Assembly: GCA_024401535.1 (NCBI GenBank)
Contig: JAKSKX010000002.1
Coordinates: forward strand, 1-64,000
Direction of reading: 5' to 3'
Origin: Paludibacteraceae bacterium
Lineage (GTDB): Bacteria > Bacteroidota > Bacteroidia > Bacteroidales > Paludibacteraceae
DNA: 64,000 nt
Of this stretch, positions 42,096-62,881 are shown piece by piece. Positions within the stretch are counted from its first letter, which is position 1; every line of letters begins with the position of its first letter. A program made the position numbers and the translations under genes. The notes below the pieces were generated by a model that saw only the letters and a list, made by a program, of their open reading frames with translations, searched no databases and was not told where the DNA came from.

Positions 42096-42566
42096 CTAAA
42101 CCGTAGGAATCGAGAACAGACGGTAATAGGCGGCTATACAAGTGCCGACAACTGAAGCGGCAAACAGAATCCAGAACACAACAAGTCTGAAACCAGGGTT
42201 GAAGCCGACAACAGCATCCTTGTTCTCCTCCGTAATCACACCGAGCTTCCTTTCCTCCTCCAGCTTCATAGAGTTTTTTGCCCTGCGCACACCCCAAAGA
42301 CTCAACAGTGCTGTTAACGGCAGTATATACACGAAATCCCTTGCACCTGCCAAAAGATGACGTTCTATATTGTTATAAGCATAGGCGACAATTCCAATAA
42401 TCATGAAGGCAACCCAAAGAAACAAACCGGAGACAGCTCTAGCTTGAAATCGAAAACTCATTTTTGATATGTTCGACATCTCCCTTACGCCAAAGAAAAG
42501 CAGGAATATGATAGCATATACAACCAGACTGAACGTAGAAAAAAATATGTTTACATATATTTCCAT
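42096..42566 (-). CDS. four-helix membrane protein, short paralogue of the 307-322-aa family
   Basis: 156 residues with four predicted membrane helices (about 5-26, 47-65, 75-93, 127-147). The order of motifs parallels the three larger proteins upstream: N-terminal FFSTFSLVVYAI (compare FFMSPLALSLYGV), LLSLWGVRRAKNS after helix 3 (compare LLCLWGYKRAGK), then GFRLVVFWILFAASVVG (compare KFAFLALWVVSMVG). It stops after the fourth helix and so lacks their long C-terminal alpha-helical domain. It is the last gene of the minus-strand membrane-protein operon, 23 bp after the 318-residue gene. Family and function are unknown. Confidence 0.65.
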   Translation of the reverse strand: MEIYVNIFFSTFSLVVYAIIFLLFFGVREMSNISKMSFRFQARAVSGLFLWVAFMIIGIVAYAYNNIERHLLAGARDFVYILPLTALLSLWGVRRAKNSMKLEEERKLGVITEENKDAVVGFNPGFRLVVFWILFAASVVGTCIAAYYRLFSIPTV

Positions 42567-42589
42567 AACTATAATATAATAGGTATATG

Positions 42590-43546
42590 CTATTTATTGA
42601 GTTGTCCTCTGCTTTCAAGCTCTTGCTGGCATTGTACAAAGAGCGTTTCTGCCGATGCAGAAAATTCACTGTTATTCGTATTGTTGGACAAAGTCGTCCG
42701 ATACGTTTCACGAATATTCAACAGAATAGCACTATACTCATCCCACTGCTCTTCGTTCAGTGTGTCAGGCAGAACAGAAAGGAATCGTTGAAGCTCTGAC
42801 TGTAATTCTTCGTTGATTTCATTGTACATTCTGATTCTCTCCTCATTTTGCTCTGCCTTCTTCTCTATGTCAGCAAGCATATTTTCACACTTTTTTCGCA
42901 ATTTAATCTCGTCCCAAAGAGGTATTTTGATAGCTTTCTCGTACTTCTCATTGTAGGCAGAGAGCAAGTCAGAGAATTCCTTATGCTTCTCTCTTGTCAA
43001 CCTATCCGAGTAATATAATTCTTCCTTCATTCTATTCTCAGCAACACTCAGTTTGCTGTTATATTCCTTGCGCATGGCCTTCTGTTGCTCATACCATTGC
43101 TCATAAGTTACAGAAACCACAAATCCAACCAAAGACACCGCAAAAAGGACAGAGAAAGCAAACTTCTTGAACTTAGGGCTTAGTCCTTTTTTGAGTTCAC
43201 CACCATCCGTGTAATTTTCAAACAAGTCATCTTTAACCTTGTCAGCTCGCTTGAATCCCCACAGGCACAACAGCAGGAACAAACCAAAGATATACATTCC
43301 GAAATGGTTCAAAATATGTGTGTTTATATCTTGATAACCAGAAGGGTCATGCACCTGGCACGTAATCAAAGCAATAACAGAACCTACTATGGCAATTTGA
43401 AGCAATTCTAACAATTCATCCTTTAAAGACTTGCATCTACCAAATACTGAATCTTTTTCAATCAAAGGATTAATAAGCACTACCCCTAGAACACCATACA
43501 GCACCAAAGCCACTGGCGACATAAAAAACGAAATAAAGAAATCCAT
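42590..43546 (-). CDS. four-helix membrane protein with long helical C-terminal domain (paralogue 3)
   Basis: 318 residues from the ATG at 43546 (MDFFISFFMSPVALVLYGV), which matches the start of its two paralogues; a TTG six codons earlier is rejected. Four membrane helices lie in the first about 150 residues, with LLCLWGFKRADK after the third. From about residue 155 on, the protein is charged and alpha-helical (YEQQKAMRKEYNSKL; ENMLADIEKKAEQNEERI), ending in SAETLFVQCQQELESRGQ. It belongs to a set with the 307- and 322-residue proteins. Predicted inner-membrane protein with a coiled soluble domain; no known family was recognised. The head-to-tail arrangement with 32-bp gaps indicates one operon. 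Confidence 0.7.
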   Translation of the reverse strand: MDFFISFFMSPVALVLYGVLGVVLINPLIEKDSVFGRCKSLKDELLELLQIAIVGSVIALITCQVHDPSGYQDINTHILNHFGMYIFGLFLLLCLWGFKRADKVKDDLFENYTDGGELKKGLSPKFKKFAFSVLFAVSLVGFVVSVTYEQWYEQQKAMRKEYNSKLSVAENRMKEELYYSDRLTREKHKEFSDLLSAYNEKYEKAIKIPLWDEIKLRKKCENMLADIEKKAEQNEERIRMYNEINEELQSELQRFLSVLPDTLNEEQWDEYSAILLNIRETYRTTLSNNTNNSEFSASAETLFVQCQQELESRGQLNK

Positions 43547-43578
43547 AGTAATTCTAACAATCAATCAAATGAAACATA

Positions 43579-44502
43579 TTACCTTTTGACTTGCCTTCTT
43601 CTGTCAAGCTCATGCTCACAATGCTCAAACAGAAGAATGGCTGCGGGAGTAAAGTAGTCGGCAGCTTCAGTGCGGTCATAGCTGCCCGAACGAGTAACAT
43701 AGAGGTTGTTCAGCACTGAATAATTATATGCGTACTGGTCTTCGTCCAACCTGTCAGGCAGTTCTGAAAGGAATGTTTCAAGCTGAGAAATCAACTTTTG
43801 GCTTTTTTCTATGCGCCATCTGTCAAACGCTTCTTTGCGTTCAACACTCTTCTGAATCTCTTCAAGCAGTTTCTGACAATCTCTAATATCAATTGACAAA
43901 CCAAACAAGAAATACTCGGAAACTTTCTTGTACCTGTCGCTCCATGCGGACAGCGAGTCATTATAAGCCTTGACATCCTGGCTTGTCAGACTGTCGTTAT
44001 AACGATTTTTGGTTAGTTCTTCCTTCATTTCTTGCAGTTTTGTGCTATACTCACTGCGCATTTCAAACATTTCACTTCTGTATTCCCTCTGCTTTTCCGA
44101 AGACACAAAACCAACCATAGACACCACCCAAAGGGCCAAGAAAGCAAACTTTCTGAACTTAGGGCTACGCCAACCACCAGTACCATACAGGTTGACATTG
44201 TACGTCTTGCCTGCCCGTTTGTATCCCCACAGGCACAACAACACAAGCAAACCAAAGATATACACTCCTATGGTTGCCATAATACTTTCTAAATTTTCAC
44301 GGAAATATATAGGTTCTTTCGCTGTACACACAAACAGCGCAAAGTCAGAAACTATTAACACTAACAACAAGAATGCCAGTGCAATTCTTTTGAACGAGTC
44401 TTGTGGAGTAATTTCCAAACGATAGATAACAAGCAATCCCCCCAAAACACCATATAGCGACAAGGCCAGGGGCGACATAAAAAACGGAATAAAAAAATCC
44501 AT
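43579..44502 (-). CDS. four-helix membrane protein with long helical C-terminal domain (paralogue 2)
   Basis: 307 residues. The N-terminus MDFFIPFFMSPLALSLYGV and the motif GVYIFGLLVLLCLWGYKRAGK are nearly shared with the neighbouring paralogues, as are KFRKFAFLALWVVSMVGFVSSE at the fourth helix and the C-terminal AAILLFEHCEHELDRRRQ. The C-terminal about 170 residues are predicted to be alpha-helical and carry conserved spaced tyrosines (RYNDSLTSQDVKAYNDSL). The loops and coiled domain differ much more than the membrane part, suggesting diversification of the soluble domain. Middle gene of the operon; function unknown. Confidence 0.7.
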   Translation of the reverse strand: MDFFIPFFMSPLALSLYGVLGGLLVIYRLEITPQDSFKRIALAFLLLVLIVSDFALFVCTAKEPIYFRENLESIMATIGVYIFGLLVLLCLWGYKRAGKTYNVNLYGTGGWRSPKFRKFAFLALWVVSMVGFVSSEKQREYRSEMFEMRSEYSTKLQEMKEELTKNRYNDSLTSQDVKAYNDSLSAWSDRYKKVSEYFLFGLSIDIRDCQKLLEEIQKSVERKEAFDRWRIEKSQKLISQLETFLSELPDRLDEDQYAYNYSVLNNLYVTRSGSYDRTEAADYFTPAAILLFEHCEHELDRRRQVKR

Positions 44503-44529
44503 AGACTAAAATTTCTAACAATAAACACA

Positions 44530-45498
44530 CTATTCTTTGACTTGTCTTCTGTTTTCAAGTTCTTGAACACATTCCTGATACAACTGAGCGGCTGCAGGAG
44601 AGAATTCTTCCGCTTCTGCATACGAATACAAAATTTGCGAATAGCTGTCATGGATGAACAACAGAGTCTCTACATTGTACTTGTACTGTACTTCGTCCAG
44701 TTTGTTAGGCACTTGGGAAATAAACAGTTGAAGCTCTGACATGAATTCTGCATTCTTTTCGTCGTACCTTTTGGCAAGTTCCTCCTTCCTAATCAGCTGA
44801 TACTCCATTTTTTTAAGATATGACTCACAAGACTCTCGTATCATTTCATTTTCACTTCTTTGGGGTACAACCATAGGAACAACTTTGTTGTAATACCTCT
44901 CCATTTCCCTCCAATGAGAGAGAGAATCATAGAAATTGTTGTACAGCTCTCTTGTCACGCGGTCATATTCGTATGTTTCACGCATTACATCCCTCATTTC
45001 CTTCACTTTGGAATTGTACTCAATGCACCATTCCCTCATTTCCTGAACTATTTTCCTTTGATTCTCTGAAACCACAAAGCCAAACAAGGACACAACTAAA
45101 AAAAACAGGAATATAAACTTGCTGAACTTGACGGCACCTTTTTCGTGTAGTTGCTGAAGAACCCGTTTGTCCGTAAAATTATCGAACAAGTCGTCACTGG
45201 CACTGACATCTCGCTTGACCCCCCACAGGCACAACAGCGAAAGCACTGCAAAGATGTAAACGCCATAGGCACCCAAAACAGAAACCATATTGGAACGGAA
45301 ACTGACAGGGGAAACAACTTTATTAAAAATCAGCATAAGCGTGAACGAGAACACGCCAAGCATCAGGAATCCCAAACCGAACTGCCTTGGCGAACCTTCT
45401 CGAGCATTTGACATACGAGGCAGAATGAGAACACCTGCCATAATGCAATACAGCGACAAGGCCAGAGGCGACAAGAAAAACGAAATAAAGAAATTCAT
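44530..45498 (-). CDS. four-helix membrane protein with long helical C-terminal domain (paralogue 1)
   Basis: 322 residues starting MNFFISFFLSPLALSLYCI. Shared blocks are YGVYIFAVLSLLCLWGVKRD, KFIFLFFLVVSLFGFVVSENQRK and the C-terminal AAAQLYQECVQELENRRQ. The coiled region (about 165-300) contains EYNSKVKEMRDVM, ELYNNFYDSLSHWREM and EELAKRYDEKNAEFMSEL. Gaps to its neighbours are 15 bp upstream and 27 bp downstream, consistent with one transcript from the promoter at 45871-45901. Possibly a membrane sensor or scaffold, but there is no signalling domain to support that. Confidence 0.7.
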   Translation of the reverse strand: MNFFISFFLSPLALSLYCIMAGVLILPRMSNAREGSPRQFGLGFLMLGVFSFTLMLIFNKVVSPVSFRSNMVSVLGAYGVYIFAVLSLLCLWGVKRDVSASDDLFDNFTDKRVLQQLHEKGAVKFSKFIFLFFLVVSLFGFVVSENQRKIVQEMREWCIEYNSKVKEMRDVMRETYEYDRVTRELYNNFYDSLSHWREMERYYNKVVPMVVPQRSENEMIRESCESYLKKMEYQLIRKEELAKRYDEKNAEFMSELQLFISQVPNKLDEVQYKYNVETLLFIHDSYSQILYSYAEAEEFSPAAAQLYQECVQELENRRQVKE

Positions 45499-46784: not shown

Positions 46785-46792
46785 TACCTTTG
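46785..46792 (+). promoter_or_regulatory. proximal -7 element of the J-domain array
   Basis: TACCTTTG followed by CAT, 28 nt before the J1 ATG at 46820. No -33 TTG at standard spacing. Confidence 0.5.
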
Positions 46793-46819: not shown

Positions 46820-47902
46820 ATGGCAAATGAAAGTGTCAGGAAAGCATACAAAATAGAAAGCTGGTGCATACCTATCATAATATCCTCGTTTTTGGCGTCA
46901 GTCAGGTGCATGGGCGACAGCGACAGGGCATTTGTAGAATTCGGCAAGATTCTGTTCGTAGCCACGTTCATCTTCACATTGATATTCATTTTCCTCATAA
47001 AGCCATATCTGAACGCCTTAAAGGACGATTCAAAGAAGTACAACGACCTAATACTGAAGCTTCTGGCACTGGTTATGAATGCCAACGGGGAAAACCTGGT
47101 ATGCGAACTCGACCAAGTCAAGGACACCATACGAAGGTACTATGACAATGAACGGGAGCAGAAGAAGGCCCTGGCACAATTCAAGGTGTACCTCGAGCAG
47201 TTCGACAACATGGACATCAACGTCATTGCCAACATCCTCAAGCGCAGCTCTAACTTCGACGTCCAGAGCATAATTATGGAGGCTATGGCTGTGGCTTTTG
47301 CAGACGGGGAGTACAGCGAGCCTGAAGTGGCACTGTTGCAGAGGCTTTCAAGCAAGCTAGGGATGACCTACGACCAATACATCTCAACCCTTCACATATT
47401 CAAGGCGAGGAAAAGGGCCGGACACTATGGCAACCCCCGTGTCAGCAACGACGACAACGTTTTCCAGACCGAGGCCAAGTTCAACGAATACGCCACTCAC
47501 GACTTCAACCAGTACGGCTTGGGATACTGGCAGCGTGACAAATACGGTAAGAAGACCTGGGTGCAGTCCGACTACAGATTCGCCAAGAACTCCAACAAGA
47601 GGAAGGAAAACAAACAAAGCGACGAGCAACGCCAGAGCAACAGCAACAGCCAGAGCCAAAGCAACAGCTACAACACAAGAAGCTACACACATTCGGCACT
47701 CGAGAGCGAATACATGACTCTCGGCATAACTTCCTCCGCAACAGACGACCAGGTTCGCACCGCATGGAAAAAGCTGATAAGCAAGTGGCATCCGGACAGA
47801 TACGAGTCCATGGGCGCAGAGGCTGTAAGGAACGCAACGGAAAACTCTAAGATTATTAACGAGGCATACAACAACATCTGCAAGGCAAGGGGTATGAGCT
47901 AA
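46820..47902 (+). CDS. J1: membrane-anchored TerB-like / J-domain protein (DjlA-like)
   Basis: 360 residues from the ATG at 46820; an in-frame TTG ten codons earlier overlaps the -7 promoter element and is rejected. Two membrane helices (about 15-29 and 42-62) are followed by a helical TerB/DjlA-like domain (about 70-190). This has paired motifs VMNANGENLVCELDQVK and MAVAFADGEYSEPE. Next come a GYWQRDKYGKKTW motif and a Ser/Asn/Gln-rich linker (about 262-288). The C-terminal J-domain (about 290-358) has intact HPD at 324-326 (KWHPDRYESMG). J-domains stimulate the Hsp70 DnaK; the architecture is that of DjlA. Client or pathway unknown. J2 follows after 12 bp. Confidence 0.85.
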   Translation: MANESVRKAYKIESWCIPIIISSFLASVRCMGDSDRAFVEFGKILFVATFIFTLIFIFLIKPYLNALKDDSKKYNDLILKLLALVMNANGENLVCELDQVKDTIRRYYDNEREQKKALAQFKVYLEQFDNMDINVIANILKRSSNFDVQSIIMEAMAVAFADGEYSEPEVALLQRLSSKLGMTYDQYISTLHIFKARKRAGHYGNPRVSNDDNVFQTEAKFNEYATHDFNQYGLGYWQRDKYGKKTWVQSDYRFAKNSNKRKENKQSDEQRQSNSNSQSQSNSYNTRSYTHSALESEYMTLGITSSATDDQVRTAWKKLISKWHPDRYESMGAEAVRNATENSKIINEAYNNICKARGMS

Positions 47903-47914
47903 AGACAGCAGAAG

Positions 47915-48961
47915 ATGGATAACAAAAATAACAACGCAGGCTGTAATATTCTATTCATTTGGGCAACAATTTTTATAGGAATATTAACCTATGCAGGATC
48001 TACGGGCGACTTGAAAACCAGCAATGTTGTCGGAGGAATTGCATTGTTTCTAATGCTCTGTTTTTTCCGCTGGGGCTACAGTACAATGACCGATGACGAC
48101 TCGGAGCAGAAATACGCAGAGACTGTACTTATGCTGCTTTCAGTCGTAATGAACGCCAACAGAGAGAACAAGGTATGCGAACTTGACCAGGTCAAGAGAA
48201 CAATCAGAAGGTACTACAAGACAGAAGCCGAGCAGAAAAAGGCTCTGAAACTTTTTCAGCAGTACCTCAAGAAAAACTACAGCATCACCTTCCTGATAGA
48301 GAGAATCAAGGAGAACCCCGTGTTTATCGGAGATGAACTGACCGCGCCTAACGACCTACTGATGGAGGCTATGGCTGTGGCCTATGCCGACGGAGAGTTC
48401 AGCGAGTCAGAGGTTGCTGTGGTCATGAAAATAGCATACAGACTGGGAATGAGCTATTACAAATACATGCATACTCTGCACCTGTTCCAGATAAAGAAGA
48501 AGGACGGATACTACGGTGACTCAACCATCACCTCTGACGACGAAGACCTACATACCTTGCAAAAATACAATGAGTACGGAACACACGACTTTAACCAGTA
48601 CGGTATGGGCCACTGGAAGACCGGAGCGGACAAGAAGAAGAAGTGGGAGCAGACCGACTACAGATTCATGGATGAGGGTTACCAGAGCAATACTAACCAG
48701 AACACCGGCTCTAACTATAGCGGAAGCTCAAGACAGAGCAGCTCATACACTTCGGTACTGGAAAGCGAGTACAAGACTTTGGGCATAACATCATCTGCCA
48801 CAGACGACCAGGTTAGCACCGCATGGAAAAAGCTGATAAGCAAGTGGCATCCGGACAGATACGAGTCCATGGGCGCAGAGGCTGTAAGGAACGCAACGGA
48901 AAACTCTAAGATTATAAACGAGGCATACAACAACATCTGCAAGGCAAGGGGTATGAGCTGA
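47915..48961 (+). CDS. J2: membrane-anchored TerB-like / J-domain protein
   Basis: 348 residues with two membrane helices (about 8-25 and 34-50). The TerB-like domain (about 65-190) has VMNANRENKVCELDQVK and MAVAYADGEFSESE. A GHWKTGADKKKKWEQTDYRF block parallels J1, followed by an Asn/Ser linker and a J-domain with HPD at 312-314. The last about 160 bp are almost identical to the end of J1 (offset 1059 bp), whereas the membrane and TerB parts are clearly divergent; this indicates recent gene conversion or a shared template. Co-transcribed with J1 (12-bp gap). Probable DnaK co-chaperone at the inner membrane. Confidence 0.85.
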   Translation: MDNKNNNAGCNILFIWATIFIGILTYAGSTGDLKTSNVVGGIALFLMLCFFRWGYSTMTDDDSEQKYAETVLMLLSVVMNANRENKVCELDQVKRTIRRYYKTEAEQKKALKLFQQYLKKNYSITFLIERIKENPVFIGDELTAPNDLLMEAMAVAYADGEFSESEVAVVMKIAYRLGMSYYKYMHTLHLFQIKKKDGYYGDSTITSDDEDLHTLQKYNEYGTHDFNQYGMGHWKTGADKKKKWEQTDYRFMDEGYQSNTNQNTGSNYSGSSRQSSSYTSVLESEYKTLGITSSATDDQVSTAWKKLISKWHPDRYESMGAEAVRNATENSKIINEAYNNICKARGMS

Positions 48962-49004
48962 TTCCTAAAAATTGTTAAATCTCCCGCAAAAGTCTCCGTT
49001 TCGT

Positions 49005-49036
49005 ATTGCAGACTAGCAGGGGAATCAGTATCTTTG
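49005..49036 (+). promoter_or_regulatory. internal promoter before J3
   Basis: ATTG (49005-49008), 20-bp spacer, TATCTTTG (49029-49036) followed by CAT. The J3 ATG is at 49115, so the leader is about 70 nt. J3-J6 can therefore be expressed apart from J1-J2. Confidence 0.7.
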
Positions 49037-49114
49037 CATTGAAATTACCGCATCCTATAGCTTAGGACTTGCAGTAAACAACTATTTTTGCGTAAACTTC
49101 TATTAGAAAACATA

Positions 49115-50218
49115 ATGGAACAGATAAAGAAAATATCGAAAGTCATAACAATCCTGTCGGCAATACTTGTAACATTCCTTGCCGTAACAAACGAAAACTT
49201 AACAAAAATCATTGGCGGTGCAACCTCTGCATTGCTCCTACTGACAATGCTTCCCCTATACTGGTGCTTGTCAAAGTACTTGAGGACAGTCAATGAAAAG
49301 GAGAAGAAAACGGAAGGGTTCACAGGCAACGGCTTCATGGGAGGCATGAGCATGGACGAAGAGCCTTCGACCGAGGAAAAGTACAAGGACTACATCCTTC
49401 AGCTTATTTCAGTCGTGATGAACGCCAACGGAAGGCAGATGGTGTGCGAGCTTGACCGTGTGAAAAGTACAATCAGCCGATACTACAAGAGCACATCAGA
49501 GCAGAACGAGGCTCTGCAGCGCTTCAAAACATACCTTGACTCAACCATTGACATCGACAAGGTCTGCGACGAAATCAACAGAATACTTACAGATTCAAGC
49601 CGTGAAGCAATCATCATGGAGCTTCTTTCGGTTGCCTATGCAGACGGAGACTTTGAAAAGTCCGAGGAGGACGTAATCCATAAAATCTGCCAAAGGATGG
49701 ACATAATGGAGCAATACATATCCATCGTTACCATATTCCGCAGAAAGAAGAAGGAGGGATTCTATGGCGACTCAACCATCAACAGTGACCGATGGAAGAA
49801 CGAAGAGGACCGTACCTACGAGGAAAAGAAAGAGGAGGAAAGGAAGAAAAAGGCAGAGGAAGAAGGCAGAGGCTACTGGTACCGCGACCATTACGGCAGA
49901 AAACGCTGGCATGAAAACAAGACCAACGACAGCTACAGCAACAGCAATAGCTACAGCAACAGCAACAGTGGAAGCGGAAGCAACAGCTACAGCTCTTCGG
50001 CTTCTAGCTTTGCACTCAACGAGGCATACAGCACTTTGGGAATCACTTCCTCGGCTACAGACGACGAGGTACGCTCGGCAAAGAAGAAGATGCTAAGGAA
50101 GTGGCATCCGGACCTATTCATGTCCCAGGGAGACGAAGCTGTGCGCAACGCTACAGAGAACTCTAAGATTATCAACCAGGCATACGACATCATCGCACGC
50201 TCGCGCGGTATGAACTAA
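49115..50218 (+). CDS. J3: membrane-anchored TerB-like / J-domain protein
   Basis: 367 residues from the ATG at 49115 (MEQIKKISKV); a TTG nine codons upstream is rejected. Two short membrane helices lie within residues about 8-52. The TerB-like domain (about 85-210) has VMNANGRQMVCELDRVK and LLSVAYADGDFEKSE. A Lys/Glu-rich coil (EEKKEEERKKKAEEE) precedes GYWYRDHYGRKRWHEN, a motif also present in J6. The linker is a Ser/Asn/Tyr/Gly run (about 275-298). The J-domain carries HPD at 331-333 (KWHPDLFMSQG). J4 follows after 12 bp. Likely inner-membrane DnaK co-chaperone. Confidence 0.85.
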   Translation: MEQIKKISKVITILSAILVTFLAVTNENLTKIIGGATSALLLLTMLPLYWCLSKYLRTVNEKEKKTEGFTGNGFMGGMSMDEEPSTEEKYKDYILQLISVVMNANGRQMVCELDRVKSTISRYYKSTSEQNEALQRFKTYLDSTIDIDKVCDEINRILTDSSREAIIMELLSVAYADGDFEKSEEDVIHKICQRMDIMEQYISIVTIFRRKKKEGFYGDSTINSDRWKNEEDRTYEEKKEEERKKKAEEEGRGYWYRDHYGRKRWHENKTNDSYSNSNSYSNSNSGSGSNSYSSSASSFALNEAYSTLGITSSATDDEVRSAKKKMLRKWHPDLFMSQGDEAVRNATENSKIINQAYDIIARSRGMN

Positions 50219-50230
50219 CATCACAGGAAA

Positions 50231-51307
50231 ATGAAAACCACCTATACAACAGTATTTTTCTTAGCTGTACTATTCTTTCGTGGACTTTGTGGAATCAACT
50301 TCTTAGCGGCATTGTTCCTGTCTGCAATAGTGTCATATACCTTCAAGCTTTTCATGGACAACCCGGACTCGTTCAAGGGCGACCCAAACGACTTTGGTGA
50401 CAATCAGGGCAGGTACAACCCTTTCTCTACGAGCCACATGAACAAAACCAGCTACACCAAGACAAAGTCTGACACATACAGGGAGAATGTACTCAGACTC
50501 TTGGCTGCTACGATGAACGCAAACGGCAAGCAGATGGTGTGCGAACTTGACCAAGTTAAGGAAAGCATCAAAAAGATGTATAAGTCAGAGAGTCAGCAGA
50601 AGATAGCCCTAAACAAGTTCAAGGGGTACTTGAAAGACTACAGGGTGAACATTCCCCGACTATGCCAGGAAATCAGAAGTTCGTACAACAAGTCAACCTG
50701 CGAGCTTCTAATCTTGGAACTTCTATCGGTAGCTTTTGCAGACGGAGTCTATCAAGCAGCCGAGAAAGAGGTAATCAAACAGATATATCGCAGTCTTGGA
50801 ATCACTGATGTGGAATACGACACCTTGGAAAGTATGTTCAGAGTGCAGAAAAAAGCTGGACTACACGGTGACACATACATGGAGGACGAGAAAGAATACG
50901 AACGCAAATATAGTCGAAGGGAGGGCTATTCTGACTCCAGCTATGGTAACAGCTCTAGCTACAGCAACAGGGGCAGCTCCAGCTATGGTAACAGCTCTAG
51001 CTATGGTAATGGTTCCAGATACAGCAACAGAGGTTCTGGGTACAGCAACAACTCCGGCTATAACAACTCCGGCTACAGCAACACCCAAAACAGCGACAAG
51101 GAGCTGGAGCACGCATACAAGACTCTGGGCATTGACATGAGCGCAACTAATGACGAGGTCAAGAACGCAAGAAAGAAGCTACTACGCAAGTGGCATCCGG
51201 ACTTGTACGAGGCTCAGGGCGAGGCAGCTGTACGCAGGGCAACTGAAAACTGCAAGATCATCAACAAGGCATACGACATCATCAGCAGTCGAAGGGGTAT
51301 AAACTAG
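50231..51307 (+). CDS. J4: TerB-like / J-domain protein with prion-like linker
   Basis: 358 residues. N-terminal hydrophobic segment (about 5-38), TerB-like domain (about 75-200; ATMNANGKQMVCELDQVK and LLSVAFADGVYQAAE), then a repetitive linker (about 233-285) built of Ser, Tyr, Gly and Asn in units such as SYGNSSSYSNRG and GYNNSGYSNT, encoded by near-tandem DNA. The J-domain has HPD at 322-324 (KWHPDLYEAQG). Such a Tyr/Gly/Ser/Asn linker is compositionally like prion-like domains and is not found in ordinary DjlA. J5 starts 12 bp downstream. Confidence 0.85.
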   Translation: MKTTYTTVFFLAVLFFRGLCGINFLAALFLSAIVSYTFKLFMDNPDSFKGDPNDFGDNQGRYNPFSTSHMNKTSYTKTKSDTYRENVLRLLAATMNANGKQMVCELDQVKESIKKMYKSESQQKIALNKFKGYLKDYRVNIPRLCQEIRSSYNKSTCELLILELLSVAFADGVYQAAEKEVIKQIYRSLGITDVEYDTLESMFRVQKKAGLHGDTYMEDEKEYERKYSRREGYSDSSYGNSSSYSNRGSSSYGNSSSYGNGSRYSNRGSGYSNNSGYNNSGYSNTQNSDKELEHAYKTLGIDMSATNDEVKNARKKLLRKWHPDLYEAQGEAAVRRATENCKIINKAYDIISSRRGIN

Positions 51308-51319
51308 CACAGGCACATC

Positions 51320-52114
51320 ATGAACCAGCTTTTTGAGATAATTACCATTATATTCGGATCGCTCATACTGATACTCTTAGTCATCAGCATGATAGGGGAA
51401 AGGTGGAACGACTTGAAAAGCCTGGATGCCAGGAAACAGCTCATTATCAGGATGTGCCAGCTTTCCAGCTCGTGGAACGACACGACTTCCAGAAAATACC
51501 TTGTCAAGATAGCATACAGCGCCATAAAAAGCGAAACTGATCAATCCTACTACAACAGCTTCTCTACAGGCGCAAACATGGAAAGACTGTTCAAAAGGGA
51601 GGTGGATGACTCGTTCATGGACAAGCCTATATTCGACGACTTCAAGTCAAACAGGAACCTATACCTGGTACTGAGAGCAATAGTCGAATATGACGGAGGC
51701 AACAGCGAGCAGAGAGCTCTGTATGAGGCTGTAATGGGCAGAATGAAGCTGTCAGACAGCACCCTTGAGAAGTTCGACAAAATATACAAGAACAGAGTCA
51801 GGGCAAGAATATACATCTTCAAAAACCAGAGCTATCAGTCAAGTCAGAGCTATCAGTCGGGCAGGAACAGCAACCAGTCGAGGACATTCAGTTCCGCACC
51901 GTCCGAGCTCAGCCGGGCATATTCAGTTCTTGGGCTTTCTCCAGACTGCTCCATAAAAATGCTGGAGAGCCAGAAACGCACACTACTTAAAAAATTCCAT
52001 CCAGACCTATACGCGGTACAGGGAGAGAACGCCGTGCGCATGGCTACGGAGAAGTGCAAGGAAATCAACCAAGCTTACGAGACAATCGCCTTGCACAAGA
52101 GAAAAATGAATTAA
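51320..52114 (+). CDS. J5: shorter J-domain protein with degenerate TerB-like region
   Basis: 264 residues. One membrane helix (about 5-25), then a helical region (about 33-165) that aligns in place with TerB of its neighbours but lacks the ADG motif (it reads VEYDGGNSEQRALYE). The linker is Ser/Gln-rich (YQSSQSYQSGRNSNQS, about 173-190). The J-domain is at about 198-262, with HPD at 227-229 in the variant context KKFHPDLYAVQG. The Trp before HPD seen in the other copies is Phe here. J6 begins 19 bp downstream. Diverged member of the array; a co-chaperone role is likely. Confidence 0.8.
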   Translation: MNQLFEIITIIFGSLILILLVISMIGERWNDLKSLDARKQLIIRMCQLSSSWNDTTSRKYLVKIAYSAIKSETDQSYYNSFSTGANMERLFKREVDDSFMDKPIFDDFKSNRNLYLVLRAIVEYDGGNSEQRALYEAVMGRMKLSDSTLEKFDKIYKNRVRARIYIFKNQSYQSSQSYQSGRNSNQSRTFSSAPSELSRAYSVLGLSPDCSIKMLESQKRTLLKKFHPDLYAVQGENAVRMATEKCKEINQAYETIALHKRKMN

Positions 52115-52133
52115 CCCGCAAACTGCAACAAAT

Positions 52134-52667
52134 ATGGATAAAACAACTGCATACATAATTGTATATATTTTTACTGCTGTTCATGCATCAATAATGTTAA
52201 GTGCTGCAGATGGTGATATTAGGATATTTATAATAATATTCTACATACTGTTTTGCATTGGTATGAAATTCAGTATTGCTGAATACTTCAAGAAGAAAGA
52301 GGAATTTGAGGCTAAGCAACAAGAGGCTAAACAAGAAAAGAAAGAGCAAAAACAACAAAACCAACAGCAGAACGGTTACTGGTATCGTGACCATTATGGA
52401 AGGAAGAGATGGCATTCTACTGAACAGCAACAGCAAACTCAAACCAGAACAACTAACTATGCACTCTTGGACGCATACATGACTCTGGGTGTAGTGGAAG
52501 GTGAATCTGATGAAGAGATAAAGGAAGCATACAAGAGACTAATCAAGAAGTGGCATCCAGACAGATTCGTTCAGGAGGGTGAAGCATCCATACATAGAGC
52601 TGAGGAGAAAACTAAGGAGATAAACAAGGCATACGACTTGATCTGCCAACACAGAGGCATGAAGTAA
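52134..52667 (+). CDS. J6: minimal membrane J-domain protein without TerB
   Basis: 177 residues. Two hydrophobic helices (about 6-23 and 29-45), a charged coil (KKKEEFEAKQQEAKQEKKEQKQQ), a Gln-rich linker, the block GYWYRDHYGRKRWH (almost identical to J3), and a J-domain with HPD at 141-143 (KWHPDRFVQEG). The TerB domain is absent. Probably a deletion derivative of a J3-like gene, still able to tether DnaK to the membrane. Downstream, a purine-rich Shine-Dalgarno-like stretch overlaps its stop region and precedes the next gene by 5 bp. Confidence 0.82.
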   Translation: MDKTTAYIIVYIFTAVHASIMLSAADGDIRIFIIIFYILFCIGMKFSIAEYFKKKEEFEAKQQEAKQEKKEQKQQNQQQNGYWYRDHYGRKRWHSTEQQQQTQTRTTNYALLDAYMTLGVVEGESDEEIKEAYKRLIKKWHPDRFVQEGEASIHRAEEKTKEINKAYDLICQHRGMK

Positions 52668-52681: not shown

Positions 52682-53188
52682 ATGTCTAAAAGAATTGACA
52701 AAGACATCAAAGATCTAAATTATCTCTATATTCTTGCCATTATTATAGGAATATCAGTAGTATCGAGAGGTAACAAACCGATTTGGGAATGGGAAAATGA
52801 ATGGTTCTTAGTACTATGTGGAAACTCTATGATATTTCTAACAATATTTGCTTCATCACTTTTTTCTAAAAGATATTATAGAAATTCCAAGAAGTTCGTC
52901 ACAGTATTTAAGATACACCTTTACCTCTTTCTCTTTTCTATGTTCTACATCTGTAAACTATGGATATTACTTGGGTTGGCTTCAGTCAGACTGCTATTAC
53001 TTGCACGCACACTAATAAAGCTGTACCAACCACAGAAGAAATATGGCAACGGCGATGACCTGTTCGTGGAGCCAGACGGGAATGAAACCACGAGCATGAC
53101 AAAGAGCGAGAGAGAAGATAGTAGTGACGAAAATCTTCCGATATTAAAGACGCGAAAAACTATGGTTAAAAAGCATAAAAATGGATAA
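52682..53188 (+). CDS. M1: small four-helix membrane protein with acidic/basic tail
   Basis: 168 residues. Hydrophobic helices at about 13-28, 37-57, 78-92 and 95-109, then a soluble tail: YQPQKKYGNGDDLF, an acidic Ser/Glu section (SEREDSSDENLP) and a basic end (KTRKTMVKKHKNG). Not a recognised family. Its last 180 bp are identical to the end of M2 (offset 514 bp), whereas the first two-thirds are only distantly similar. It ends in ATGGATAA, where the stop TAA overlaps the M2 start ATG, implying translational coupling. It follows J6 by 14 bp in the same transcript. Confidence 0.7.
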   Translation: MSKRIDKDIKDLNYLYILAIIIGISVVSRGNKPIWEWENEWFLVLCGNSMIFLTIFASSLFSKRYYRNSKKFVTVFKIHLYLFLFSMFYICKLWILLGLASVRLLLLARTLIKLYQPQKKYGNGDDLFVEPDGNETTSMTKSEREDSSDENLPILKTRKTMVKKHKNG

Positions 53189-54093
53189 TAGATTTGGCAA
53201 AGAGATTGACCAAGAGATAAAAGATATACACAAAATCTATATTATAGGAGTTTTGGTATGCACAATATACCTTTCAATACGATTATTAGAGCCATTTTGG
53301 AAATGGGAAAAACAATGGTTTGTTTTTCTATTTGTAGGTTCGGGGTGTGCTGCGATATACACCGGCCTTAAAATGCTTTTAAACGAATATTACAGACAGT
53401 CCAAAAAATACACTACCGTATTTAAAATACACCTTTACCTCTGCCCTATGCTTTTTTTAGTTATTTTCCAACTATGGATACCATTGGGTTTAGTTGCAGT
53501 CAGGCTGCTATTCCTAGCACACACACTAATAAAGCTGTACCAACCACAGAAGAAATATGGCAACGGCGATGACCTGTTCGTGGAGCCAGACGGGAATGAA
53601 ACCACGAGCATGACAAAGAGCGAGAGAGAAGATAGTAGTGACGAAAATCTTCCGATATTAAAGACGCGAAAAACTATGGTTAAAAAGCATAAAAATGGAT
53701 AATAGATTTGGCAAAGAGATTGACCAAGAGATAAAAGATATACACAAAATCTATATTATAGGAGTTTTGGTATGCACAATATACCTTTCAATACGATTAT
53801 TAGAGCCATTTTGGAAATGGGAAAAACAATGGTTTGTTTTTCTATTTGTAGGTTCGGGGTGTGCTGCGATATACACCGGCCTTAAAATGCTTTTAAACGA
53901 ATATTACAGACAGTCCAAAAAATACACTACCGTATTTAAAATACACCTTTACCTCTGCCCTATGCTTTTTTTAGTTATTTTCCAACTATGGATACCATTG
54001 GGTTTAGTTGCAGTCAGGCTGCTATTCCTAGCACACACACTAATAAAGCTGTACCAACCACAGAAGAAATATGGCAACGGCGATGACCTGTTC
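53008..54093 (+). repeat. 514-bp tandem duplication (unequal crossover product)
   Basis: 53008-53579 appears identical to 53522-54093 (period 514 bp, 572 bp of match). The extra 58 bp equals the homologous segment shared by M1 and M3 (53008-53065 and 54036-54093), encoding TLIKLYQPQKKYGNGDDLF. That is the signature of one crossover within 58 bp of homology. Confidence 0.85.
53181..53702 (+). CDS. M2: chimeric paralogue of M1 and M3
   Basis: 173 residues. Residues 1-133 match M3 exactly and the tail (VEPDGNETTSMTKSEREDSS...) matches M1 exactly, so it is a hybrid of its two neighbours. Four membrane helices as in M1 (ILGVLVCTIYLSI-type helix, VFLFVGSGCAAIYTGL, LFLVIFQLWI, GLVAVRLLFLAHTL). The start overlaps the M1 stop and the stop overlaps the M3 start, both by the 8-base ATGGATAA. 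Function unknown; it belongs to the J-array operon. Confidence 0.75.
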   Translation: MDNRFGKEIDQEIKDIHKIYIIGVLVCTIYLSIRLLEPFWKWEKQWFVFLFVGSGCAAIYTGLKMLLNEYYRQSKKYTTVFKIHLYLCPMLFLVIFQLWIPLGLVAVRLLFLAHTLIKLYQPQKKYGNGDDLFVEPDGNETTSMTKSEREDSSDENLPILKTRKTMVKKHKNG

Positions 54094-54216
54094 AATGAGC
54101 CAGACGGGAATGAATCCACGAGCATGACAAAGTGCGAGAATGAAGATAGTAGTGACGAAAATCTTCCGATATTAGAAGACAAGAAGAGCCACAATAAAAG
54201 CGACAAAAAAAGGTGA
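53695..54216 (+). CDS. M3: small four-helix membrane protein, paralogue of M1
   Basis: 173 residues, N-terminal 133 residues identical to M2. The tail differs (NEPDGNESTSMTKCENEDSSDENLPILEDKKSHNKS), with an acidic stretch followed by Lys-rich residues. Last gene of the plus-strand array; the stop at 54216 is 78 bp from the convergent thioesterase stop. No clear terminator is visible in the gap, which instead holds a forward promoter (54245-54275). Confidence 0.72.
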   Translation: MDNRFGKEIDQEIKDIHKIYIIGVLVCTIYLSIRLLEPFWKWEKQWFVFLFVGSGCAAIYTGLKMLLNEYYRQSKKYTTVFKIHLYLCPMLFLVIFQLWIPLGLVAVRLLFLAHTLIKLYQPQKKYGNGDDLFNEPDGNESTSMTKCENEDSSDENLPILEDKKSHNKSDKKR

Positions 54217-61990: not shown

Positions 61991-62022
61991 TTTGCATATT
62001 AAGAACTTTATATATAATTTTG
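61991..62022 (+). promoter_or_regulatory. promoter of J7
   Basis: TTTG (61991-61994), 20-bp spacer, TAATTTTG (62015-62022) followed by CCG. A full consensus match; the leader is about 30 nt. J7 is therefore transcribed independently of the xylanase genes. Confidence 0.8.
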
Positions 62023-62056: not shown

Positions 62057-62881
62057 ATGAGCAGCTTCTTTATAATTATCATATTTATCCTATACAAAAT
62101 ATTCAGATCGTCTTTTCTGAATGGCTCTAGTATTGGAGACGATTCGGGCAGAGGAATACCGAACATAGACCAATACTTCAACTCTATAGCAGCTCCGGTA
62201 ATAATGGTTGCCAGAATGTCGTCTAACCCGACAAGGGAGAAACAAAACGAGGTAAACTACTACATCCAGAATGTAATCATACCTACATACTTTAACGATC
62301 TGGCTACAAGGCACAAAGCTTACTCTGTATTTGCAAAGTACACGAGAATCGACAGAGAAACACTGATAAACCTAGTAAAGAACGCAGGTGACACTATAAT
62401 CAGAACAAGCCCAAGCACATACTACAAGAAGACTCTGCTAAAGCATCTGTTTGAAATTTGCAGTATATGTGACGGCATGAACACAACCCAGAGAGACTTC
62501 ATAGAGTCATTTGCAAGGAAAATTGGAGTCAGCGCCAGACAAACATACGACGAATACATGTCGGAAAACGGAGGAAGCTACGACTGGCATAACCATAGGA
62601 GCTCTTATGACCAAAACACAAACGACAATTACAGCTATGGGTACGAGAGAACTGCAAACAAAACTTCCGCAGGTGAGCTGGAGAAGGCTTACAAAACTTT
62701 GGGAGTTGATGAAAACGCAACGGACGACGAGATAAAAACAAGGAAAAACAAACTTTTAAGGAAGTGGCATCCGGACCTCTACGCACAACAAGGAGAGGAA
62801 GCAATAAAAAAGGCAACTCTCAATTCACAAAAGATAAACGAAGCCTACGACATCATAAAGGAACATCGCGGCTTTAACTAG
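62057..62881 (+). CDS. J7: solitary J-domain protein of the same family
   Basis: 274 residues. N-terminal membrane helix (about 2-15, FFIIIIFILYKIF), a helical region (about 40-175) aligning with TerB of the array, with ICSICDGMNTTQRDF where others have ADG, a short Asn/Tyr/Ser linker (SYDQNTNDNYSYGYE), and a J-domain with HPD at 238-240 (KWHPDLYAQQG). The end KEHRGFN resembles the KARGMS / SRGMN ends of J1-J4. It is separated from the array by 9.4 kb of thioesterase and xylanase genes. It has its own promoter and shares a bidirectional terminator with the DUF4197 gene. Confidence 0.83.
   Translation: MSSFFIIIIFILYKIFRSSFLNGSSIGDDSGRGIPNIDQYFNSIAAPVIMVARMSSNPTREKQNEVNYYIQNVIIPTYFNDLATRHKAYSVFAKYTRIDRETLINLVKNAGDTIIRTSPSTYYKKTLLKHLFEICSICDGMNTTQRDFIESFARKIGVSARQTYDEYMSENGGSYDWHNHRSSYDQNTNDNYSYGYERTANKTSAGELEKAYKTLGVDENATDDEIKTRKNKLLRKWHPDLYAQQGEEAIKKATLNSQKINEAYDIIKEHRGFN

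Follow-up and report, generated by a model that had tools for sequence, protein, structure and literature searches.

The J-domain gene array

The stretch of DNA analysed here (64,000 nucleotides, referred to in its full length as the window) comprises positions 1 to 64,000 of contig JAKSKX010000002.1 from the Paludibacteraceae bacterium assembly GCA_024401535.1. Between positions 46820 and 52667 of its plus strand lie six adjacent genes (J1-J6), each coding for a protein that starts with a membrane segment and ends in a J-domain containing the HPD motif. Open reading frames and Pfam matches agree on this layout, which had been reported in a preliminary description of the window, and the six-gene array is confirmed. 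The Pfam DnaJ profile (PF00226) scores above its cut-off in all six proteins (E 1.6e-13 to 1.3e-8), the HPD motif is intact in each, and the predicted models of J4 and J5 match solved J-domain structures. By their J fold and HPD motif the proteins can be placed among the class C J-domain proteins, and are predicted to stimulate the ATPase of Hsp70.

J1 (46820..47902) and J2 (47915..48961) both consist of a membrane segment, a TerB domain, a linker and the J-domain; J1 lies in a TTG-started frame beginning at 46790, in which the in-frame ATG at 46820 is the likelier start. The J cassettes of the two genes are near-identical, with 91.6% DNA identity over a 237-bp 3' alignment spanning the J-domain (the remainder is 58% alike), which argues that the array is not due to chance. 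J3 (49115..50218; in-frame ATG at 49115 of a TTG-started frame from 49088) contains the top-scoring TerB domain of the array, followed by the motif GYWYRDHYGRKRW, a linker and the J-domain. In the AlphaFold2 model of J4 (50231..51307), a membrane-length helix at residues 4-43 precedes TerB (79-208), a disordered linker and the J-domain (285-355). J5 (51320..52114) has a helical, apparently TerB-like middle part between its membrane segment and J-domain, while J6 (52134..52667) comprises a membrane segment, the motif GYWYRDHYGRKRW and the J-domain, without TerB.

Profile searches identified the middle domain of J1-J4 as TerB (PF05099; 38.5, 38.8, 56.7 and 44.2 bits, respectively, against a gathering cut-off of 24.4), and left J5 and J6 unmatched by that profile. 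The proposed series of full, degenerate (J5, eroded) and absent (J6) TerB domains was thereby borne out, with the middle of J5 probably an eroded TerB. Of the paired NANG and ADG motifs ascribed to the first four proteins, ADG occurs in all of them and NANG in J1, J3 and J4, but not in J2, which has NANR.

Intergenic gaps within the array are short, except for that between J2 and J3. Since this gap alone is not short, the layout suggests two transcription units, namely J1-J2, and J3-J6 together with three small downstream genes (K1-K3, described below). A seventh gene, J7 (62057..62881, plus strand), lies outside the array and codes for a membrane segment, a divergent middle part and a J-domain. 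Positions 61991-62022, at J7, match the Bacteroidetes promoter pattern; the strict form of this pattern was not matched just upstream of J1 or J3. The source genome (G000, 91.5% complete) contains nine DnaJ-family matches in total: DnaJ itself, J1-J6, J7 and one on contig C34.

Anatomy of the family

A family set of 87 proteins with a C-terminal HPD was drawn from the window together with 20 other fetched stretches. Pfam TerB is matched at E <= 0.01 in 63 of them, and one or two membrane segments are predicted in 82. When the J profile was applied without the HPD filter, 125 hits were obtained over both fetches, and HPD is kept in 124. A TerB profile built from the family matches 123 of these 125, partly by construction; in the second fetch, which lay outside the training set and is partly orthologous to it, 35 of 36 are matched. 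Many of the linkers preceding the J-domain are rich in Asn, Ser, Gln, Gly and Tyr (up to 92% of 50 residues), a prion-like composition.

Distribution and copy number

A scan of named genomes with query A2 returned 34 loci. Twenty-six of them occur in records named Paludibacteraceae bacterium, Bacteroidales bacterium or Candidatus Scybalocola fimicaballi, several of which are labelled horse faeces or RUG; the remaining eight are weak J-domain matches in Hyphomicrobium, a Chloroflexi and a Desulfobulbaceae record. DnaJ-family matches number 18, 22, 27, 26, 26, 31, 24 and 16 in the congeners G001-G008, and G000, with its nine, has the fewest in its genus. The copy number is therefore unusual, as first proposed, and an array of six understates it. 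These counts run slightly above gene counts, as G003, G004, G006 and G007 each include one or two weak matches that share a frame with a genuine one.

Among 250 genomes of the family, for which the best 23 candidates per genome were scored, at least 10 J matches were found in 24, belonging to three genera: g1 (8 of 9 genomes), g5 (4 of 6) and g27 (12 of 16). Genus g27 is uneven, with 3-4 matches in some genomes and more than 20 in others, and none of the other 219 genomes of the family exceeds eight. In a class-level sample (296 genomes with a completeness of 85% or more), 0-9 matches were found in each of 295 other Bacteroidia genomes among the best 20 candidates scored per genome, a number of candidates reached by G563 and G574. 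The membrane-tethered J-domain proteins have thus undergone a lineage-specific expansion. No description of such arrays appeared among the matches listed from the open-access PMC literature; Barriot et al. (2020), cited in PMC8215388, reportedly analysed the domains of prokaryotic J-proteins, and may cover TerB-J proteins.

One strong DnaK is present in each of the 13 genomes tested (that of G008 in two pieces), and the source genome codes for a single full-length DnaK. A second Hsp70 partner was considered and rejected, the extra HSP70-family matches being short and weak apart from one. The exception, a frame of 821 aa in a single congener (G003:C49:51611-53206), matches the HSP70 family twice and is possibly a divergent Hsp70-like protein.

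Evolution of the J cassette

Within arrays, the synonymous difference (pS) over locally well-aligned codons is 0.49 in the J-domain, as opposed to 0.69 in the rest of the gene, and is lower in the J-domain in 118 of the 129 usable pairs. J7 was counted with the array of the window. Without an alignment filter the J-domain is lower in 155 of 170 pairs; because the comparison is open to misalignment bias, it was rerun on the locally well-aligned codons (129 of the 170 pairs) and cross-checked with orthologues. Between species, orthologues have a pS of 0.34 in the J-domain and 0.32 in the rest, with the J-domain lower in 22 of 54 pairs. Constraint on J codons alone does not explain the low values within arrays, since orthologues show no such drop.

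Twelve of the 54 orthologue pairs show a difference between the two parts that stays significant under Bonferroni correction: in five the J-domain has diverged further than a near-identical body, and in seven it has diverged less. The pairs share genes and are therefore not independent. The clearest case combines a body difference of 1.2% with a J-domain difference of 12.9%. The J cassette therefore has a history separate from that of the body, and its likeness within arrays at synonymous sites, together with orthologues whose near-identical bodies carry different J-domains, indicates that the cassette is moved by recombination, most simply by gene conversion. Array neighbours would be the presumed partners in this conversion. 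The likeness of J-domain DNA in G006 is 0.83 for genes of one array and 0.47 for genes of different arrays, compared with 0.60 and 0.43 for the rest.

The non-J part shows a nonsynonymous difference (pN) of 0.08 between orthologues, against a pS of 0.32. Both parts thus look purified, as HPD is retained in nearly all family members and non-J pN is well below pS; no arms-race signature was found in pN/pS between orthologues. These results support a picture in which recombination and purifying selection hold the J output uniform as the input part changes. The preliminary description had proposed a conserved output joined to a varied input, and the present case for it is stronger than the original claim, in that the J cassettes are more alike even at synonymous sites.

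Proposed function

We consider it probable that the arrays code for lineage-expanded, DjlA-like tethers which bring a single DnaK to a variety of membrane sites or clients. Each protein would be anchored in the inner membrane by its N-terminal helix; the TerB-like domain, facing the cytoplasm, would select a client, partner or signal, and the C-terminal J-domain, beyond a flexible linker, would trigger the single DnaK of the cell at the tethered spot. Duplication would supply new members, whose TerB and linker part diverges, while recombination (most simply gene conversion) would recopy the J cassette, so that every copy would stay compatible with the same DnaK. The recruitment of Hsp70/DnaK to the membrane face is proposed by analogy with DjlA; we also infer the cytoplasmic orientation, DnaK binding, recognition by TerB, and the processes and clients that would benefit. 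A more tentative idea, which is possible but rather doubtful, is that of a variable-constant repertoire: dozens of membrane receptors, with TerB diversified by duplication and the Hsp70-triggering cassette recopied by gene conversion. If true, such a repertoire would let one DnaK serve a changing set of membrane inputs.

Several observations weigh against the proposal of DjlA-like tethers. All six array proteins match the DjlA model of NCBIfam (NF006948) better than any other, but their scores of 50.0-84.1 bits fall far below the cut-off of 162, and for this reason the proteins are called DjlA-like rather than DjlA; the order of parts originally claimed, that of DjlA, holds in J1-J4. TerB appears dispensable to the design, since J6 lacks it and Pfam TerB is unmatched at E <= 0.01 in 24 of the 87 family proteins. 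Membrane segments are predicted to number 7-8 in three proteins and are lacking in one, and the charge bias that would fit a cytoplasmic TerB and J-domain (67 of 86) is itself a biased count, the N-terminal stretch often being short. As to recombination, 41 of the 170 paralogue pairs are too poorly aligned for the strict pS test, and the window provides just four usable pairs of 21, with the J-domain lower in three. The nearest J cassette lies in the protein's own array in 17 of 54 cases, compared with 15 of 54 for the body, and a sibling J-domain closer than that of an orthologue (body more than 80% alike) was flagged in one of 54; the donors of J cassettes may sit in other strains or arrays. 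The contrast within and between arrays is small in G003 (0.76 versus 0.72) and G004 (0.78 versus 0.72) and not seen between two G060 arrays, and homogenisation of the J-domain is local in G006 and G012.

Array turnover

Gene number at the serC-serA site varies among congeners. J genes are lacking there in G000 (in the 3.4 kb up to the contig end) and reduced to a truncated remnant in G001; there are two in G002, G004 and G006, three in G003 (spanning a contig break, by flank matching), at least one in G008 (at a contig end) and seven in G007, while the serC search was unmatched in G005. In the window, J6 is directly followed on the same strand by K1 (52682..53188), K2 (53181..53702) and K3 (53695..54216). 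K1 and K3 code for small membrane proteins of one family with no Pfam match above cut-off, and query A4 for this family found no match in 60 relatives. K2 is a mosaic, apparently the product of unequal crossing-over among these tandem genes, as its 5' part equals K3 and its 3' part equals K1.

The variable serC-serA site, the crossing-over borne by K1-K3 and the unevenness of g27 (from 3-4 to more than 20 matches) would all be expected of ordinary tandem duplication, in which copies of a DjlA-like gene build up, recombine and degenerate without much division of function. The retention of HPD (124 of 125) and the low non-J pN of orthologues (0.08 versus a pS of 0.32) point instead to purifying selection on both parts, and we regard duplication without division of labour as unlikely.

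Genomic neighbourhood

Tandem arrays, patchy distribution and recombination would also suit a conflict repertoire, in which TerB senses proteins of phages or mobile elements at the membrane and the J-domain relays to DnaK. Some neighbours, counted as raw occurrences, are of the kind expected: a polyvalent-protein kinase (PF18762, 115 bits; L083:12820-13554) within the serA-site J array of G007, with candidate frames that start like it at the same site in G001 and G002 (L152, L153); IS200-like transposases at the rfb-linked J site; and, 3' of one G060 array (L085:5936-10000), a D12 adenine methyltransferase, a type II restriction-enzyme match and an HEC-06-like gene. Against this, PADLOC profiles gave weak and scattered hits for the 87 proteins at E <= 0.01 (hits fall in five families, of which the most frequent occurs in six proteins with a best E of 5e-4; lowest E 7.4e-5, in one protein), two scans of viral contigs revealed no close relative (A2 drew three J-only hits, 36-46% identical, and J3 drew none), and the body parts appear purified between species. 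An anti-phage role is thus quite improbable; no convincing match to a PADLOC defence model was obtained for the 87 proteins, and a phage origin was rejected on the two viral scans.

Least probable of all, and very doubtful, is a role as chaperones dedicated to giant surface adhesins or to type IX secretion: the window contains, at 19-39 kb, three genes with CHU_C sorting domains, three congener sites (L080, L161, L154; raw occurrence) have PorP/SprF genes close to J genes, and in nine genomes a CHU_C match is found no more than 5 kb from nine of 111 J clusters (against 5.7 expected; p about 0.12), but none of the CHU_C tests is significant, with 7 of 68 clusters (six genomes) and 13 of 111 (nine genomes, orthologous sites counted repeatedly) within 10 kb where 6.4 and 10.4, respectively, are expected. 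Of 200 J matches these tests used 186, excluding the canonical DnaJ of each genome as well as five that were weak or partial; of 226 CHU_C matches they used 150, and genome sizes were rounded and contig ends ignored. The divergent operon at 42096-45498 (minus strand) codes for four related membrane proteins, the other three being 38, 37 and 26% identical to the first, without Pfam match above cut-off; query A3 found this operon in none of 60 relatives. A link to surface secretion through neighbouring genes, and conserved synteny with the operon, were thus not supported, and the preliminary interpretation as a whole is partly supported.

Open frames of ~8300-9000 codons with CHU_C domains, coding for giant surface proteins, occur in G000:C56, G006:C18, G034:C40 and others. 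At the htpG (Hsp90) locus (L161, L162, L098) there is a J pair with an ion-channel gene between, its domains checked in L161, and such a co-location of Hsp90 and Hsp70 functions could be meaningful. In L085, dnaK lies on the same contig as the J array, about 7.6 kb away. Proteins of ~210 aa that begin alike when compared by eye (AY-VY-F--DFV), and that have no Pfam match, are found either close to J genes or at a site without any (L151:2655-3275, L086:8678-9301, L163:3351-3998).

Significance and comparison with known systems

The ligands of DjlA-type proteins and the role of TerB are given as open questions in PMC11709261. The dozens of natural variants described here, which all appear to feed one DnaK, offer ready contrasts, with a constant J-domain, varied TerB domains and orthologue pairs that differ almost only in J. 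Our results suggest that a bacterial co-chaperone network can grow by duplication of J-proteins without Hsp70 expansion, and that recombination can act on a single domain of a bacterial protein family.

The TerB of ter operons (TerB / COG3793, 2ou3) is a separate protein without a membrane segment or J-domain. DjlA of E. coli, a class C protein, has an N-terminal membrane helix, a TerB-like middle and a cytoplasmic C-terminal J-domain; it is a DnaK co-chaperone without a specific substrate-binding domain, and its physiological clients are unknown (PMC11709261). Like DjlA, J1-J4 have the order membrane segment, TerB-like domain and C-terminal J-domain, as judged by Pfam and hydropathy and by the J4 model, whereas J6 lacks TerB and the middle of J5 has no Pfam TerB match. 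Unlike DjlA, the array proteins occur in many copies per genome, their linkers are often rich in Asn, Ser and Gln, and their J cassettes appear to recombine among copies. Myxococcus xanthus DK1622, with 15 J-domain proteins and at least two DnaKs (PMC11019930), is likewise a bacterium with many J-domain proteins. The present lineage differs from it in having up to 31 J matches per one strong DnaK, in about 4 Mb, and in repeating a single layout in tandem.
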